From the NCBI RefSeq assembly GCF_000212735.1, contig NC_015510.1:5457001-5521000 (forward strand): DNA of 64,000 nucleotides, written 5' to 3'. Below the pieces are notes generated by a model, which did not search any database, had not been told where the DNA came from, and saw nothing but the letters and a program-made list of their open reading frames with translations. This DNA comes from Haliscomenobacter hydrossis DSM 1100. GTDB taxonomy: Bacteria; Bacteroidota; Bacteroidia; Chitinophagales; Saprospiraceae. Positions 1-3,880 of the stretch are shown here, in pieces. The position numbers and the translations under genes are program-made. The number at the start of each line of letters is the position of its first letter. Positions within the stretch are counted from its first letter, which is position 1.

Positions 1-825
1 GCTATCTCTACCGATGGTTTGGGGGTAGAAACAACCGATCTTTTGCCCCGAAAAAAATTATTCCGTGCTGCTATAGAGCAGCTACATGCAGAAAAATTTG
101 TAGCACTAATGGAGCGCTATTACCCTGTTGAGGCCAACCTAGCAAAAGTTGGAGAAGGAAATTTAAACCGAGGTAATTACCTTGTCTCAATCAGTTCTTT
201 TTATTTGGCCAAAACCGAAGTCACCTATTGGCAATGGGGACTCTATGTCGCAGCAAGTGATGTGGAAATGGACAAACCTGGCTGGGGAACTGAAGGGAAC
301 AACCCCGCAGTATATCTCAGTTGGTATGATGCTACCGATTATTGCAATTGGGTGAGTACCCAGATGGGGTATCCAAATGTTTATGCCCGACAAGGAGATG
401 AGGTGTCAATCAACTGGAACGCAAAAGGATTTCGCTTACCCACTGAAGCAGAATGGGAGTATGCCGCCCGTGGAGGGGCACAGCAGCAAAATTTTGAATA
501 CAGCGGGAGCAATGAGATAGAGGAGGTAGCTTGGTATGCTGAAAACTCAGGCAGCAGAACCCGTCCTGTGGGTATCAAAAAGGCCAACTCGCTTGGCTTA
601 TTTGATATGAGCGGCAACGTATGGGAATGGTGCTGGGATTGGTACGGTGACTACGACCCCGCCGCAAAAGCCGATCCCCGCGGCCCCAATAAAGGCTCCC
701 TCCGTGTTCGCCGTGGCGGATCGTGGTTCTACTACCCGTTCAGCGCGCGCGTGGCCGATCGCTACGACGTCACGCCGGATCGCCGCGACGATGGTATCGG
801 TTTTCGTCTAGCCAGGCAGCAGTAG
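1..825 (+). CDS. DGR target protein, FGE-sulfatase/C-type-lectin fold, 5' end cut by window
   Basis: The reading frame is open from base 1, so the true start lies upstream; a TTG at 19 is in frame but need not be the start. The visible 270 or so residues contain a formylglycine-generating-enzyme-like domain: SFYLAKTEVTYWQW, NNPAVYLSWYDATDYCNW, GFRLPTEAEWEYAARGG, and GLFDMSGNVWEWCWDWYG are its hallmark blocks. The chain ends RRGGSW...IGFRLARQQ, the usual C-terminal core of this fold. In DGR systems this fold carries the diversified, ligand-binding surface. The last ~43 residues are encoded by the variable repeat at 694-814, and the stop follows three codons later. The catalytic-type Cys pair of true FGE is not evident, so a binding role is more likely than enzymatic activity. 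The N-terminal domain, which would tell the cell location, is outside the window. The ligand is unknown. Confidence 0.93.
   Translation, partial: AISTDGLGVETTDLLPRKKLFRAAIEQLHAEKFVALMERYYPVEANLAKVGEGNLNRGNYLVSISSFYLAKTEVTYWQWGLYVAASDVEMDKPGWGTEGNNPAVYLSWYDATDYCNWVSTQMGYPNVYARQGDEVSINWNAKGFRLPTEAEWEYAARGGAQQQNFEYSGSNEIEEVAWYAENSGSRTRPVGIKKANSLGLFDMSGNVWEWCWDWYGDYDPAAKADPRGPNKGSLRVRRGGSWFYYPFSARVADRYDVTPDRRDDGIGFRLARQQ
694..814 (+). repeat. DGR variable repeat (VR)
   Basis: This segment matches the template repeat at 2861-2981 base for base with a constant offset of 2167. Between 694 and 806 I count 21 differences and every one falls on a TR adenine; none of the C, G or T positions differ. Fifteen codons are changed, 14 of them AAC/AAT in the template, now reading L, R, F, Y, Y, S, D, Y, D, V, R, D, D, G. 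The one non-adenine difference is 807 (T in VR, C in TR), inside the 3' tail that corresponds to the initiation-of-mutagenic-homing region, where VR and TR copies usually differ slightly. Homology stops near 814, just before the stop codon. Confidence 0.97.
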
Positions 826-865
826 CTTTTTGTCTTTTTTACCTTTTTACCAGGTATTTTTTTTT

Positions 866-899
866 AAAAGCCTGTGCGCCGTAGCGCACAGGCTTTTTT
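866..899 (+). terminator. Hairpin after VR, terminator and possible DGR homing cruciform
   Basis: Perfect 11-bp stem (869-879 with 884-894), loop CGTA, followed by a T run at 895-899. It is a good intrinsic terminator for the target gene. It lies 55 bp after the end of the VR; in the Bordetella phage DGR a short GC-rich hairpin with a 4-nt loop downstream of VR aids target recognition, so it may serve both purposes. The second role is inference. Confidence 0.75.
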
Positions 900-1011
900 A
901 CGTTATATAGAATCCCTGCAAAGGGGATATATGCGAAGCATCGATTTTTACATATATATGCGAAATAAAAAAACACAGCCAATCGTTCTCTGTAATATAT
1001 GATCTGCATAT

Positions 1012-1494
1012 ATGGACATGAGGATCTTCACACTGCCATTTGATGCGGTTTCAGAGGGGTTTCCGGATGAAATCGTGACGGAATTTTGCCTCAACAAGAA
1101 GGTACACAGTTTGCAGGCGCAATTCTTTTTGCACGAGGGTCGGCCATTCTGGTCGGTAGCGGTACAGTACGAGGTGCTGGTACACGGGGAAGAGAAGGTA
1201 CGGGATCTGGATGAGGCGCAGCAACAATTGTATACCCGCCTGCGGGAATGGCGCAAAAAGCAGGCCGAGAAAGAGGGTGTGCCGGTGTTTATTTTGGCCA
1301 CCAATCAGCACTTGACGAACATGGTTCGGTTGAAAGCACAGTCGCTGGAAACCTTGAAACAGATCAAGGGCTTTGGCCCCAAAAAAACGCAAAAATACGG
1401 CAAGCAGATCATTGCCATCATCAAGGCGTTTTATGAAGAAAAACCTGCTGAGGCTCCACCGGAGCCAACAGATAAAAAAGACACACCATTTTAA
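1012..1494 (+). CDS. DGR-associated HRDC-domain protein
   Basis: 160 residues. The N-terminal ~65 residues (IFTLPFDAVSEGFPDEIVTEF, then a strand-rich stretch) resemble the small domain that precedes HRDC in DGR accessory proteins. Residues ~66-150 fit an HRDC helical domain: a helix LYTRLREWRKKQAEK, then VPVFILATNQHLTNMVRLK, and the helix-hairpin-like LKQIKGFGPKKTQKYG. HRDC domains bind nucleic acid in RecQ helicases and RNase D. HRDC proteins have been reported as accessory genes in a subset of DGRs, where the role is unproven. The tail is proline and glutamate rich. ATG at 1012 is used, with a second ATG at 1018 possible. The stop is 12 bases before avd, so it is probably co-transcribed with avd and the RT. 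An AT-rich stretch with repeated ATATATGCGA lies upstream. Confidence 0.85.
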   Translation: MDMRIFTLPFDAVSEGFPDEIVTEFCLNKKVHSLQAQFFLHEGRPFWSVAVQYEVLVHGEEKVRDLDEAQQQLYTRLREWRKKQAEKEGVPVFILATNQHLTNMVRLKAQSLETLKQIKGFGPKKTQKYGKQIIAIIKAFYEEKPAEAPPEPTDKKDTPF

Positions 1495-1506
1495 ACCGGA
1501 AAAATC

Positions 1507-1854
1507 ATGGCCAGCCCAAACCAATACCCGCTTTACGAGCACTGGTACAAAACCATGAATTGGCTCCTGGATCGTTGCGATCGGATGCCCAAACACCTGC
1601 GCTTTACCGTCAGTGGCCGTATGGTCACGATGAGCACCGATATCGCTGAACTGTTGCTGGAGGCCATTTACTCCCGGGACAAGCTCCCCAAGCTGCAAGC
1701 AATCAACTTGCAATTGGAAAAACTGCGCCTGTATTGCCGCCTCTGCAAAGACCGCAACTATTTTACCCTGACCCAATACGAGTACATTTCCCGAGAAATC
1801 AATGAAGCTGGAAAAATGTGTGGTGGATGGATGAAAAACCATAGCGCGGAATGA
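1507..1854 (+). CDS. avd: DGR accessory variability determinant (four-helix bundle)
   Basis: 115 residues, almost wholly helical, with the pattern YEHWYKTMNWLLDRCDRMPK, FTVSGRMVTMSTDIAELLLEAI, LQAINLQLEKLRLYCRLCKD and a final helix. This is the size and layout of Avd, the basic bundle that forms a pentamer, binds the RT and the TR-containing RNA, and is needed for mutagenic cDNA synthesis. It sits directly upstream of the RT, and its stop codon overlaps the RT start by four bases (ATGA at 1851-1854), which indicates translational coupling and fixed stoichiometry. The close HRDC gene upstream suggests one operon of three genes. Family membership rests on size, helical pattern and position; confidence is high because of the RT next to it. 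Confidence 0.9.
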   Translation: MASPNQYPLYEHWYKTMNWLLDRCDRMPKHLRFTVSGRMVTMSTDIAELLLEAIYSRDKLPKLQAINLQLEKLRLYCRLCKDRNYFTLTQYEYISREINEAGKMCGGWMKNHSAE

Positions 1855-2840
1855 AAAGAACCGGGAATTTATTTGCAGCCTTTACCGCTTTCCCGAACCT
1901 GTTGAACGCTTACTACAAAGCGCGAAAGGGTACGCGACGCAATCAGGAAACGGGCTTCTTTTTTTTGAACCTGGAGGCAGAATTGTTTCAGCTTCAGGAA
2001 GAATTACTGCAATTGACCTACCAGCCACAGCCCTATCGGTATTTCCAAATCTACGACCCCAAAGAGCGCACCATTTCTGTAGCGGCCTTCCGGGATCGGG
2101 TAGTTCACCATGCCTTGGTCAATGTATTGGAACCCGTATATGAGCGAATCTTCATTTACGACAGCTACGCCACACGCAAAGGCAAGGGCAATCACCTGGC
2201 ATTATTGCGTGCACAACAGATGATCCGCATCCATCCCTTGTTTTTAAAAAGTGATGTAGACAAATATTTCGACAGCATCAGCCAGGAGCGTTTAATGGAA
2301 ATCATTGCCCACAAAATTAAAGATGCCCAGTTATTGGACATTACAGCCCGCATCATCCGGAACGGAGGGCATCGTGGATTGGGTTTGCCCATTGGCAACC
2401 TCACCAGTCAGTTTTTCGCCAATGTTTACCTCAATGAGCTGGATTATTTTGTAAAGCACCAGCTCAAGGGGAAATATTATATTCGCTACATGGATGATTT
2501 TGTGTTGTTTGAACCAGATCGAAGAACCCTGAAATCTCATTTAACGGCCATTCAATATTTTTTAGCTGACTCCCTACAATTGCAACTCAAACCTTCGGCA
2601 ACTTTCATCAACAGTTCTGCCAATGGGCTTACTTTTTTGGGCAAAAGGATCTTCCCTCAGGCCATTCGTATCGCTCGACCAAATTTGTTGCGCATGACCC
2701 GTAAAATGAAAAACCGTGAAGAGGAATACAAAGAAGGTACCATCAGTGAAGAAGATTTTCTGGCTTCAATGAACAGTTATTGGGCTTGTCTTGCCTTTGG
2801 AGATACCTATGGCTTGCGCAAAAAATTGGCTTCATCATAA
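1851..2840 (+). CDS. DGR reverse transcriptase
   Basis: 329 residues, the usual length of a DGR RT, with no maturase or endonuclease domain. Palm motifs are visible in order: RDRVVHHALVNVLEP, SYATRKGKGNHLAL, KSDVDKYFDSI (first catalytic Asp), GLPIGNLTSQFFANVYLNEL (the GxPxGNLTSQ block that separates DGR enzymes from group II intron RTs), YIRYMDDFVLF (catalytic DD), and NGLTFLGKRI. The enzyme copies the TR transcript into cDNA and misincorporates opposite template adenines, so the VR gains random bases at those sites. The start overlaps the avd stop. The TR begins 20 bases after the stop codon, so template and enzyme are likely made from one transcript. Confidence 0.97.
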   Translation: MKRTGNLFAAFTAFPNLLNAYYKARKGTRRNQETGFFFLNLEAELFQLQEELLQLTYQPQPYRYFQIYDPKERTISVAAFRDRVVHHALVNVLEPVYERIFIYDSYATRKGKGNHLALLRAQQMIRIHPLFLKSDVDKYFDSISQERLMEIIAHKIKDAQLLDITARIIRNGGHRGLGLPIGNLTSQFFANVYLNELDYFVKHQLKGKYYIRYMDDFVLFEPDRRTLKSHLTAIQYFLADSLQLQLKPSATFINSSANGLTFLGKRIFPQAIRIARPNLLRMTRKMKNREEEYKEGTISEEDFLASMNSYWACLAFGDTYGLRKKLASS

Positions 2841-2860
2841 AATAGGTAAAGTGGGCATGA

Positions 2861-2981
2861 GGCTCCAACCGTGTTAACCGTGGCGGATCGTGGAACAACA
2901 ACCCGATCAACGCGCGCGTGGCCAATCGCAACAACAACACGCCGGATAACCGCAACAATAATATCGGTTTTCGCCTAGCCA
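2861..2981 (+). repeat. DGR template repeat (TR)
   Basis: This is the non-varying copy of the VR. It is made mostly of AAC and AAT codons and, read in the VR frame, would encode [14 protein letters not shown]...IGFRLAN. I count 33 adenines from 2861 to 2973; 21 are replaced in the VR and 12 are kept. The adenines sit nearly all at codon positions 1 and 2 with a pyrimidine in position 3, so mutagenesis cannot create stop codons. The 3' end (2963-2981, ATCGGTTTTCGCCTAGCCA) is the homing-region copy and differs from the VR only at 2974. Confidence 0.97.
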
Positions 2982-3160
2982 ATACAGCCGACATATTTCC
3001 AGAATGCCAGTCTCCTTGTTTTGCGGGGATGCTGGTAGGGTGACTGCTGCTGTCCAGCCCACTTGACCTGCATCTGAGCAGAAACGCTCGGATCGAATAT
3101 CCAACCGTAGTTTCCGCTTAGTAGCGCTGTCGAAGAGCGGAAACTATAACTCCAGCGGTG
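2982..3160 (+). ncRNA. Possible 3' part of the DGR template RNA
   Basis: No convincing gene lies here. A stem of 11 bp pairs 3108-3118 with 3136-3146 (TAGTTTCCGCT with its complement, 17-nt loop). In the Bordetella DGR, cDNA synthesis needs a structured RNA segment beyond the TR that also primes the reaction; this region occupies the equivalent place. That it plays this role is inference. Confidence 0.4.
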
Positions 3161-3177
3161 TTTTAACCACATATCTT

Positions 3178-3299
3178 GAAGCTGCCCGGGAGCAAATATC
3201 TAAATCAATCTATTTTTTCAGATAGCTGCCCCCCGGGCAGCTTCCATTGATTAAACAGGGCATCGGGAATGCTACCTAGATAGCTGCCCGCCGGGCAGC
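3178..3299. repeat. Two GC-rich inverted repeats
   Basis: 13-bp arms GAAGCTGCCCGGG (3178-3190) and its complement (3232-3244) enclose 41 bases. A second, tight palindrome GCTGCCCG-C-CGGGCAGC covers 3283-3299. The motif GATAGCTGCCC occurs in both. Either may end the RT/TR transcript, but neither is followed by a clear T run. Confidence 0.7.
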
Positions 3300-3429
3300 C
3301 GAGGGTCGATCAGTGCTAAGAAAAGCCAAAAAAACAACACCTAATAACATCGTACAAACTTACATTTTTCCAAAACCAGTCGCGTAGCGACGAGTCATTT
3401 TGTAATAGCGGGTAGCACATTTTACCCAT

Positions 3430-3863
3430 CACTCCGTAAGCGCTCGTCAATCTTTCTTCGCCGCCTTCGGCAGCAAGCTCGACGATCGCGGGTACCCAAA
3501 CCCTACGTAAATGACCATTAGATTTGAGACAAGTTGATTATCAGGTAATTGATTCATTGTCAAATGATTTTGAGTTAAGAGTTAAGAATACATGACTTAC
3601 GAGTTTAGAAGTGGGCTACCGCAGCGACTCAGACATGCAACGCCGAATAAGTCGCTGCGGTAGCCCACTTCTAAACTCGTAAGTCATGTACTCGTCACTC
3701 GTCACTCAAAAAAACAAGAAAATTATCAATTGCTTGATCATCAACTTGCCTCAAGTCCATTATACTCCAACCTCAATGGCCACGCAGGATGCCAAACCCG
3801 CGATCGTCGAGCCCGCTCGCGACAGCGAGCAATTTGGGATCGACGAGCGCTCACGGAGTGACG
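3430..3863. repeat. Nested palindromic element with perfect 40-bp inner inverted repeat
   Basis: Outer arms near 3429-3497 and 3797-3865 share TCACTCCGT, AGCGCTCGTC and GCTCGACGATCGCGGGT in opposite orientation, with divergent bases between that still form small local hairpins. Inside them, 3589-3628 pairs perfectly with 3651-3690 (40 bp, 22-nt loop). No protein-coding content is convincing. It looks like a decayed or nested repeat insertion. Together with the elements before it, it fills the ~900-base gap between the DGR and the hydrolase. Confidence 0.85.
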
Positions 3864-3880
3864 CGTAAAATCTTCAACCT

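Follow-up and report, generated by a model that had tools for sequence, protein, structure and literature searches.

In the multicellular bacterium Thiohalocapsa sp. PB-PSB1, diversity-generating retroelements (DGRs) vary sensors that combine an nSTAND1 domain with an FGE domain, some loci are trans or degenerate, and transposon-like repeats replace DGR parts (PMC10907252; this and the other papers cited here are represented by part of their text). Here we describe a complete DGR of Haliscomenobacter hydrossis DSM 1100 that lies in a window of 64,000 nucleotides on contig C1 (C1:5457001-5521000; the window is the whole stretch of DNA analyzed, and positions without a prefix refer to it). This filamentous bacterium, whose genus inhabits activated sludge, has three plasmids, and its genome comprises 8,771,651 bases in 4 contigs, C1 with 8,371,686 bases and C2-C4, which we call small replicons; our own label for the locus is L009. 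We consider it about 75% probable that this chromosomal DGR rewrites the last ~40 codons of an nSTAND1-FGE sensor by the full mechanism set out below.

Like DGR 6 of Thiohalocapsa, the H. hydrossis DGR varies the FGE end of an nSTAND1 protein and has an effector gene nearby, and lost or remote DGR parts occur elsewhere in both genomes; the target of DGR 6 was read as an antigen sensor (PMC10907252). The 2 systems differ in that EAD8 is common to the target and the trypsin-like effector of DGR 6, whereas the neighbor of our target is a SIR2_2-EAD11 protein and the target itself yielded no EAD match. HRDC, SIR2, Haliscomenobacter and Saprospir are not mentioned in the main text of PMC10907252. 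The DGR of Treponema denticola also has an HRDC accessory beside its reverse transcriptase (RT) and an FGE-like variable protein, TvpA, but the text describing it mentions no Avd, its targets are lipoproteins, and its accessory gene lies between the template repeat (TR) and the RT, whereas our TR follows the RT (PMC4891356). The RT of the BPP-1 phage DGR is 36% identical to ours and both elements have an RNA 3' of the TR, but no HRDC gene is annotated between target and RT in BPP-1 (our locus L281). A Haliscomenobacter DGR, possibly the present element, was named in the DiGReF survey of 2012 as a member of structural group 2 with a divergent RT (PMC3521204, whose main text contains no mention of HRDC). 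NTPase conflict systems with DGRs (PMC7159879) and 11 paralogous conflict proteins of H. hydrossis (PMC8195603) have also been reported, and the accessory proteins have been given as 'avd or HRDC' (PMC3240598), with HRDC and MSL named as other known ones (PMC10053308). DGR-varied STAND sensors are thus already known (2024), as is a Haliscomenobacter DGR since 2012; the noteworthy points of this locus are the proposed accessory exchange and the proposed template RNA. Most such cassettes carry one helper protein, and this one has 2, together with a folded RNA beside the template that is common to its relatives. The parts of the element are the following:

1-825, + strand: 3' end of the target gene, encoding an FGE/C-type-lectin domain; the gene starts at C1:5454949, before the window
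694-814, + strand: variable repeat (VR), with adenine-only differences from the TR in its core (694-804)
796-814, + strand: 3' end of the VR, resembling an initiation of mutagenic homing (IMH) site, identical to the TR except for T807 (C in the TR)
1012-1494, + strand: HRDC accessory protein, 160 aa (PF00570, 4.8e-20)
1507-1854, + strand: Avd accessory protein, 115 aa (bAvd PF22296, 4.4e-17; NF033474 DivGenRetAVD, 1.1e-32)
1851-2840, + strand: DGR reverse transcriptase, 329 aa (PF00078, 5.1e-18)
2861-2981, + strand: template repeat, with 35 adenines
2979-3150, + strand: structured RNA of four helices (covariance model, covariation)
2984-2988/3049-3053 and about 3005-3037, + strand: RNA helices P1 and P2
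3072-3076/3089-3093 and 3107-3119/3135-3147, + strand: RNA helices P3 and P4, the latter with internal loop AGUA/GAA

When the 121 bases of the VR and the TR were aligned without gaps at an offset of 2167, 99 of 121 positions were identical. In the core (111 positions, 33 of them adenines in the TR), 21 of 21 mismatches fell on TR adenines and 12 adenines were kept, the same counts as in the initial annotation of this DNA, and realignment found no change at any C, G or T of 694-804, as had been claimed (hypergeometric P ~1.5e-14 for the adenine bias). The sole non-adenine mismatch over the 121 positions, TR C2974 against VR T807, lies in the IMH-like 3' part, whose role we assume from BPP-1. 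A T is found at the matching position in 3 orphan relatives and in some related TRs (loci L182, L183, and L185), and therefore it may be the TR that changed there; the copied stretch would then end before 807. Searching the 8.77-Mb genome with the TR pattern, every A left free and up to 3 mismatches allowed, returned only this VR and the TR itself, so that remote VRs of the present TR were set aside. Adenine change alters the encoded residue at 18 TR codons, 14 of them AAC or AAT; no stop codon can be reached in this way, and about 7.5e18 proteins can.

The HRDC, Avd, and RT genes form a tight row with intact frames. The RT carries the YMDD and GLPIGNLTSQ motifs that had been read from its translation, has the 8ub7 reverse transcriptase as its best solved relative (2.4e-47), and groups with RTs whose loci mostly have TR/VR pairs. 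No solved relative of Avd was found in the structure-relative search, and an AlphaFold model of the HRDC accessory made from a two-row alignment placed a strand-helix-strand-strand stretch before the HRDC helices, weakly (mean pLDDT, the predicted local distance difference test, 66.3). Besides the DGR RT, the genome has 12 RT matches with no more than 23% to 32% identity to it, and a second DGR among them was set aside; they are likely to be mainly group II intron RTs. A promoter scan returned 0 sites. Target, HRDC, Avd, RT, and TR are thus all present, and the repeats and the Pfam and NCBIfam matches support the initial proposal of a complete DGR that has an FGE-type target and both accessories, HRDC and Avd. 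The extent proposed for it (1-2981) was too narrow, because the start of the target lies 2,052 bases upstream of the window and the 3' RNA reaches 3150.

The initial annotation had also expected the N-terminal part of the target, beyond the window, to be informative about its purpose. With the upstream sequence added, the target (L009:7949-10825) has 958 aa, with Pfam matches to nSTAND1 at residues 18-412 (3.5e-34) and to FGE-sulfatase at residues 747-956 (1.3e-44), and a long stretch without a Pfam match between the two. The best solved relative of the FGE part is TvpA of T. denticola (PDB 2y3c, 1.2e-37), which together with the FGE-sulfatase match places the VR, by sequence, in a ligand-binding C-type-lectin fold. 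The protein thus joins a STAND NTPase to a sensor domain, and upstream of its gene lies a gene for a SIR2_2-EAD11 protein of 381 aa (Pfam). This gene has a 76% DNA match at a contig end of one congener (genome G125), and the same arrangement of SIR2_2-EAD11, nSTAND1-FGE, HRDC, Avd, RT, and TR recurs in another genus of the family (L186). In other relatives one TR matches the VRs of 2 targets, a caspase-FGE and a DUF4062-nSTAND1-FGE protein (L183), or the targets are caspase-FGE proteins (L184 and L185); of nine proteins of relatives scanned, one (L182) showed FGE only. Because of these caspase-FGE and nSTAND1-FGE targets, the relatives appear to diversify proteins of the cell-suicide type. Our target is most likely a diversified immune sensor of the nSTAND1 type. 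Its nSTAND1 half is 39% to 41% identical to 3 further stretches of the genome (C3:1796-3280, C1:2213675-2215417, and C1:7040222-7041715), which lie in open frames of 573 to 634 aa in which the match stops short of the FGE end.

Over the ~150 to 170 nt 3' of the TR, stretches picked by anchors showed an alike fold in 10 loci. A covariance model built from 4 of them with a structure set by hand (R1; L009, L181, L183, and L184) found, over 48 chosen loci, its own 4 rows, then the 6 other members of the RT clade described below (including L101), these at E 6.5e-22 to 2.8e-8, and 6 further loci at E 2.9e-6 to 0.48. In the resulting 16-row alignment, which was fitted to the model, 92.9% of 482 pair cells pair vs 37% to 50% in slid controls, both partners vary in 31 of 32 pairs, and none of 500 shuffles equals the alignment in any of these measures. 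By reading of the aligned stretches, all 10 clade members have the P4 internal loop [AG]GUA/GAA, which is reminiscent of the sarcin-ricin (loop E) motif. A second model, R2, gave 46 matches at E <= 0.1, one per locus, in 180 loci (L280 lay outside the search, and near-identical loci such as L216, L217, and L220 were counted singly). These matches occur in DGRs of all three accessory types: many Avd-type loci have one and more do not, and 6 of 12 HRDC-only loci do (L187, L188, L190, L195, L196, and L198; L190 and L195 only at E 0.08). The match starts between -20 and +60 nt from the TR end, on the TR strand, in 39 of the 41 loci with a TR called by the scan and in 25 of 27 among rows outside the R2 model (exceptions L158 and L117; E exceeds 0.01 for these two and for 8 of the 25). 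For five matches no TR was called, among them the match in L128, where RNA and RT are on opposite strands. In the H. hydrossis genome R2 scored 105.5 bits at the DGR, itself a row of the model, and 42.8 bits (E 2.1e-6) at a place on C3, with 2 chance-level matches (E ~6) besides; 150 of 910 first-look candidates were scored in this search.

The Rfam family RT-14 (RF02921) lies on the same or overlapping stretches as R2 in 10 of 20 loci scanned (L203, L216, L204, L206, L109, L210, L211, L215, L219, and L221), 9 of them with Avd and L219 with only an RT found. RT-14 has no match in our window up to E 1 or in L183 up to E 0.1, is absent from L196 and L200, and stays below its curated score of 48.1 bits in L009, L181, L182, L101, L102, L103, and L107, so that a relationship between our RNA and RT-14 is indicated only through R2. 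A literature search returned no paper on the RT-14 RNA by name, and in the literature covered, with Wu 2018 and Handa 2025 outside it, we found no link of RT-14 to a covarying template RNA of HRDC-type DGRs. We propose a template role for the H. hydrossis RNA because the BPP-1 spacer has been described as folding, recruiting bRT-Avd, and holding the adenine that primes cDNA synthesis (PMC12875486). If this role is right, the covariance model also provides a marker of DGR template RNA that is independent of the TR letters, finds DGR remains without an RT, and indicates the sites at which mutations would be informative in assays.

To place the double-accessory arrangement, 298 genomes of the family were searched with the RT at E <= 1e-50, which gave 40 matches in 28 genomes including our own. 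Regions were taken for 20 of the 39 other matches (the 19 best and one from the congener G199); 19 of these 20 and our own locus have TR/VR pairs, and the scan found none in L194. HRDC, Avd, RT, and TR follow one another in that order in 7 of 7 loci with RT identity of at least 53%, our own included, and these make HRDC and Avd co-occur in 7 of 21 family loci. Of the remaining 14, 12 carry HRDC but gave no Avd match. The other 2, L193 and L200, have no HRDC match, and in them Avd-like frames lie opposite to the RT strand (L193:8085-8438 and L200:1188-2315, both - strand). Wider samples of the order (396 genomes) and the phylum (395 genomes) at E <= 1e-85 added no new clade member. Among 160 loci picked by RT likeness from genomes and viral contigs (80 kept of 231 and 80 of 109), HRDC and Avd occur together in 2 (L103 and L102, a Syntrophus metagenome-assembled genome), Avd on either strand with the RT in 95, and the RT alone in 63, a class in which some loci are cut by contig ends; distant forms may be missed throughout because the HRDC and Avd profiles were built from family loci. 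The co-occurrence in one operon is thus uncommon in the sets examined, as had been suspected, and it is a trait of one RT clade and no oddity of this locus.

In a tree of 70 chosen RTs with a provisional root, made by a quick method with only the Shimodaira-Hasegawa-like approximate likelihood-ratio test (SH-aLRT) as support, without the Treponema RT and with several long-branched rows including BPP-1, the 9 double-accessory loci and L101 (cut and unlabelled) form one clade (96). This clade is sister to the 12 HRDC-only loci (100), and the joint group (95) lies within the Avd-type DGRs. Two changes of accessory state, the minimum for three states, are enough on the labelled rows; this count skipped 8 unlabelled rows, among them L111 and L112 with opposite-strand Avd-like frames, and L193 and L200 were labelled Avd by hand. 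When unlabelled rows are treated as a group of their own, the double state needs 2 changes because of L101. The simplest reading that fits this tree is that HRDC was gained and Avd was then lost in one branch. Extending it, we give even odds to the view that DGRs with both proteins are a living intermediate of accessory exchange, in which a single HRDC gain by an Avd-type DGR would have been followed by Avd loss in one daughter lineage, while one four-helix 3' RNA was kept, of which RT-14 would be a part. On this view, RT-14 would be the RNA that flanks DGR templates, and the helices that outlasted Avd loss would be those read by the RT and not by Avd. The literature on HRDC with DGRs that was covered, the Wu 2018 survey being outside it, yielded no description of HRDC and Avd in one DGR, two of the papers treating HRDC outside DGRs, and that covered for an Avd-to-HRDC step, without Wu 2018 and Handa 2025, no double-accessory clade. 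If right, the clade makes the function of HRDC, and its possible replacement of Avd, a testable question.

FGE domains are abundant in this genome (56 Pfam matches, the TR itself among them), and several of the genes bear traces of earlier diversification. The nearest relatives of the VR retain 77, 76, and 73 of 86 non-adenine positions, and certain differences are common to the first two alone; we therefore take these relatives for former targets of related templates and not for current ones. Four paralog groups (18 genes, the window target included) were picked by eye from 33 C-terminal ends found by motif, the TR and VR among them, and are therefore not a random sample. In their last 38 codons, among codon pairs with differing residues, positions 1 and 2 change at 0.69 to 0.74 and third positions only at 0.12 to 0.30; upstream windows as low as the VR window numbered 0 of 196, 0 of 180, 0 of 157, and 0 of 199 in the four groups. 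Conservation of the protein scaffold as the cause of this pattern was ruled out by the codon-position test, for which the upstream windows served as control. By eye, the ends of group 2 resemble the TRs of L188, L191, and L192, and those of group 4 the TRs of L190, L195, and L199. In a scan of nine of the FGE proteins, a caspase domain was present in five (L071, two of L057, L016, and L021; L016, L021, and the second L057 protein are outside the 18 codon-tested genes), a trypsin domain in one (L031), and neither in three. The remains of a further DGR were found on C3:

L057:2655-8899 on C3, - strand: deleted DGR remains, with caspase-FGE genes, HRDC remnant, TR fragment, and RNA

In this stretch, a pair of caspase-FGE genes, the second of which ends like a VR, is followed by a remnant of the HRDC start, a TR fragment, the RNA (L057 4809-4650), and a third caspase-FGE gene, and no Avd or RT frame was seen between these parts. 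The HRDC remnant and the TR fragment were recognized by eye, and because the TR fragment and the end of the second target differ in length, the second half of their pairwise alignment is poor. If this reading is right, a filamentous bacterium has repeatedly gained and lost a machinery that diversifies suicide-type sensors. Short FGE genes also occur in clusters, four Pfam matches in L052 (C1:1534500-1539500) and two in L056 (C1:6257500-6262000). Their ends are VR-like, and genes of one cluster resemble each other in their 3' flanks; the genome-wide TR-pattern and RT searches found no match near either. Comparison of plasmid records with two stretches of the small replicons gave no match, from which nothing follows since the plasmids' own records are possibly absent.

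In the mechanism that we propose for the chromosomal DGR, the template RNA would comprise the TR and the folded 3' RNA (2861-3150). The RT with Avd, perhaps aided by HRDC, would copy it and place random bases opposite adenines, and the cDNA would replace the VR up to a 3' boundary before 807, altering residues at the C-terminal end of the FGE/C-type-lectin domain. Through this varied end the nSTAND1 NTPase would sense its ligand and assemble, and the assembled sensor would act with the SIR2-EAD11 neighbor, a predicted NAD+-consuming protein, so that the cell is stopped or killed. Random rewriting of the sensor end could perhaps let the sensor recognize new invaders. The DGR itself is real and complete; we infer from its sequence that it is probably active and likely sits on a defense sensor. 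The flank of the VR contains one further feature that bears on this mechanism:

826-897, + strand: pyrimidine tract (CTTTTTTACCTTTTTAC) followed by a 14-bp hairpin (866-897)

This hairpin, a possible retrohoming hairpin and/or terminator, is one of several points that weigh against the mechanism, because its loop is CGTA and not GRNA and it begins 51 nt after the VR. The GRNA loop was reported for phage DGRs (PMC3240598), and therefore the CGTA loop does not exclude a bacterial DGR. The exact pyrimidine tract is also present in L183, and tracts judged similar by eye occur in most of 7 aligned loci (unclear in L182). On the RNA side, R2 has no match at E <= 0.1 in 134 of 180 loci with DGR-like RTs, including 6 of 12 HRDC-only loci, and it finds no match in the BPP-1 spacer; with filters off, its best partial match there (24 nt, 1.2 bits, DGR strand, 7 nt after the TR) proves nothing. 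The Pfam scan found EAD11 in the SIR2 protein only, as in L186, so that no effector-associated domain is common to effector and STAND protein and the usual EAD-to-EAD recruitment is not seen. In addition, an RT of this clade is present in none of the four congeners searched, and the C/T difference at 807 shows either that the two repeats have had time to diverge at this site or that copying ends before it.

These last points also count in favor of a recent fossil, that is, a DGR with intact parts that is inactive and whose VR was fixed at its last change. Consistent with such a fossil, the genome contains former targets with lost DGRs and the deleted DGR on C3, two congeners (G018 and G247) lack an RT match at E <= 1e-50, the RTs of the remaining two belong to other types, and there is the one non-adenine difference at 807. 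A frozen VR is expected to collect C, G, and T changes as well, however, and the 111 core positions contain 0 of them, the frames are intact, and the RNA helices are kept, so we regard an inactive element as unlikely. We consider it similarly improbable that the target is a housekeeping or signalling protein, for example in cell-cell recognition within filaments. The DGR targets studied in cellular pathogens are indeed outer-membrane lipoproteins (PMC10907252) and TvpA is the best solved relative of the FGE part of our target, but the nSTAND1 and SIR2_2-EAD11 domains, their repeated pairing in L186, and the caspase and nSTAND1 targets of relatives point to a defense sensor, as does the published interpretation of DGR 6, a similar element, in terms of a conflict system (PMC10907252). 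Practically no weight is left for chance or FGE paralog divergence as the source of the adenine-only differences. The 56 FGE matches make paralogs abundant, and scaffold residues mimicking the TR would by themselves yield some apparent adenine bias, but for the VR (694-814) this origin is already refuted by the P value given above and by the RT, Avd, HRDC, and RNA alongside it, and in the paralogs the first and second codon positions change and the third stays, opposite to what these genes show in their upstream parts.

Some further features lie outside the DGR. On C2, a row of genes (L302:768-13973, - strand) comprises a CHAT gene, an AAA_5 (MoxR-like) ATPase, a 2048-aa frame with four FGE domains, and a WD40 protein, and has the look of a conflict system. 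Nested inverted repeats occupy 3411-3879 of the window, with arms at 3411-3452/3838-3879 and 3568-3629/3650-3711 among others. Copies of their outer parts were listed at 7 further places, 5 of which have an FGE gene within 2 kb, and one copy begins ~50 nt past the VR-like end of an old target (L008); the repeats are possibly a mobile element by which DGR targets are eroded or moved. Rfam matches of the palindrome at 3591-3688 to microRNA families were below their cut-offs and were rejected as chance. Finally, between the RNA and these large repeats, 3220-3299 contains the 22-nt sequence AGATAGCTGCCC[C/G]CCGGGCAGC twice, and both copies include a small palindrome.

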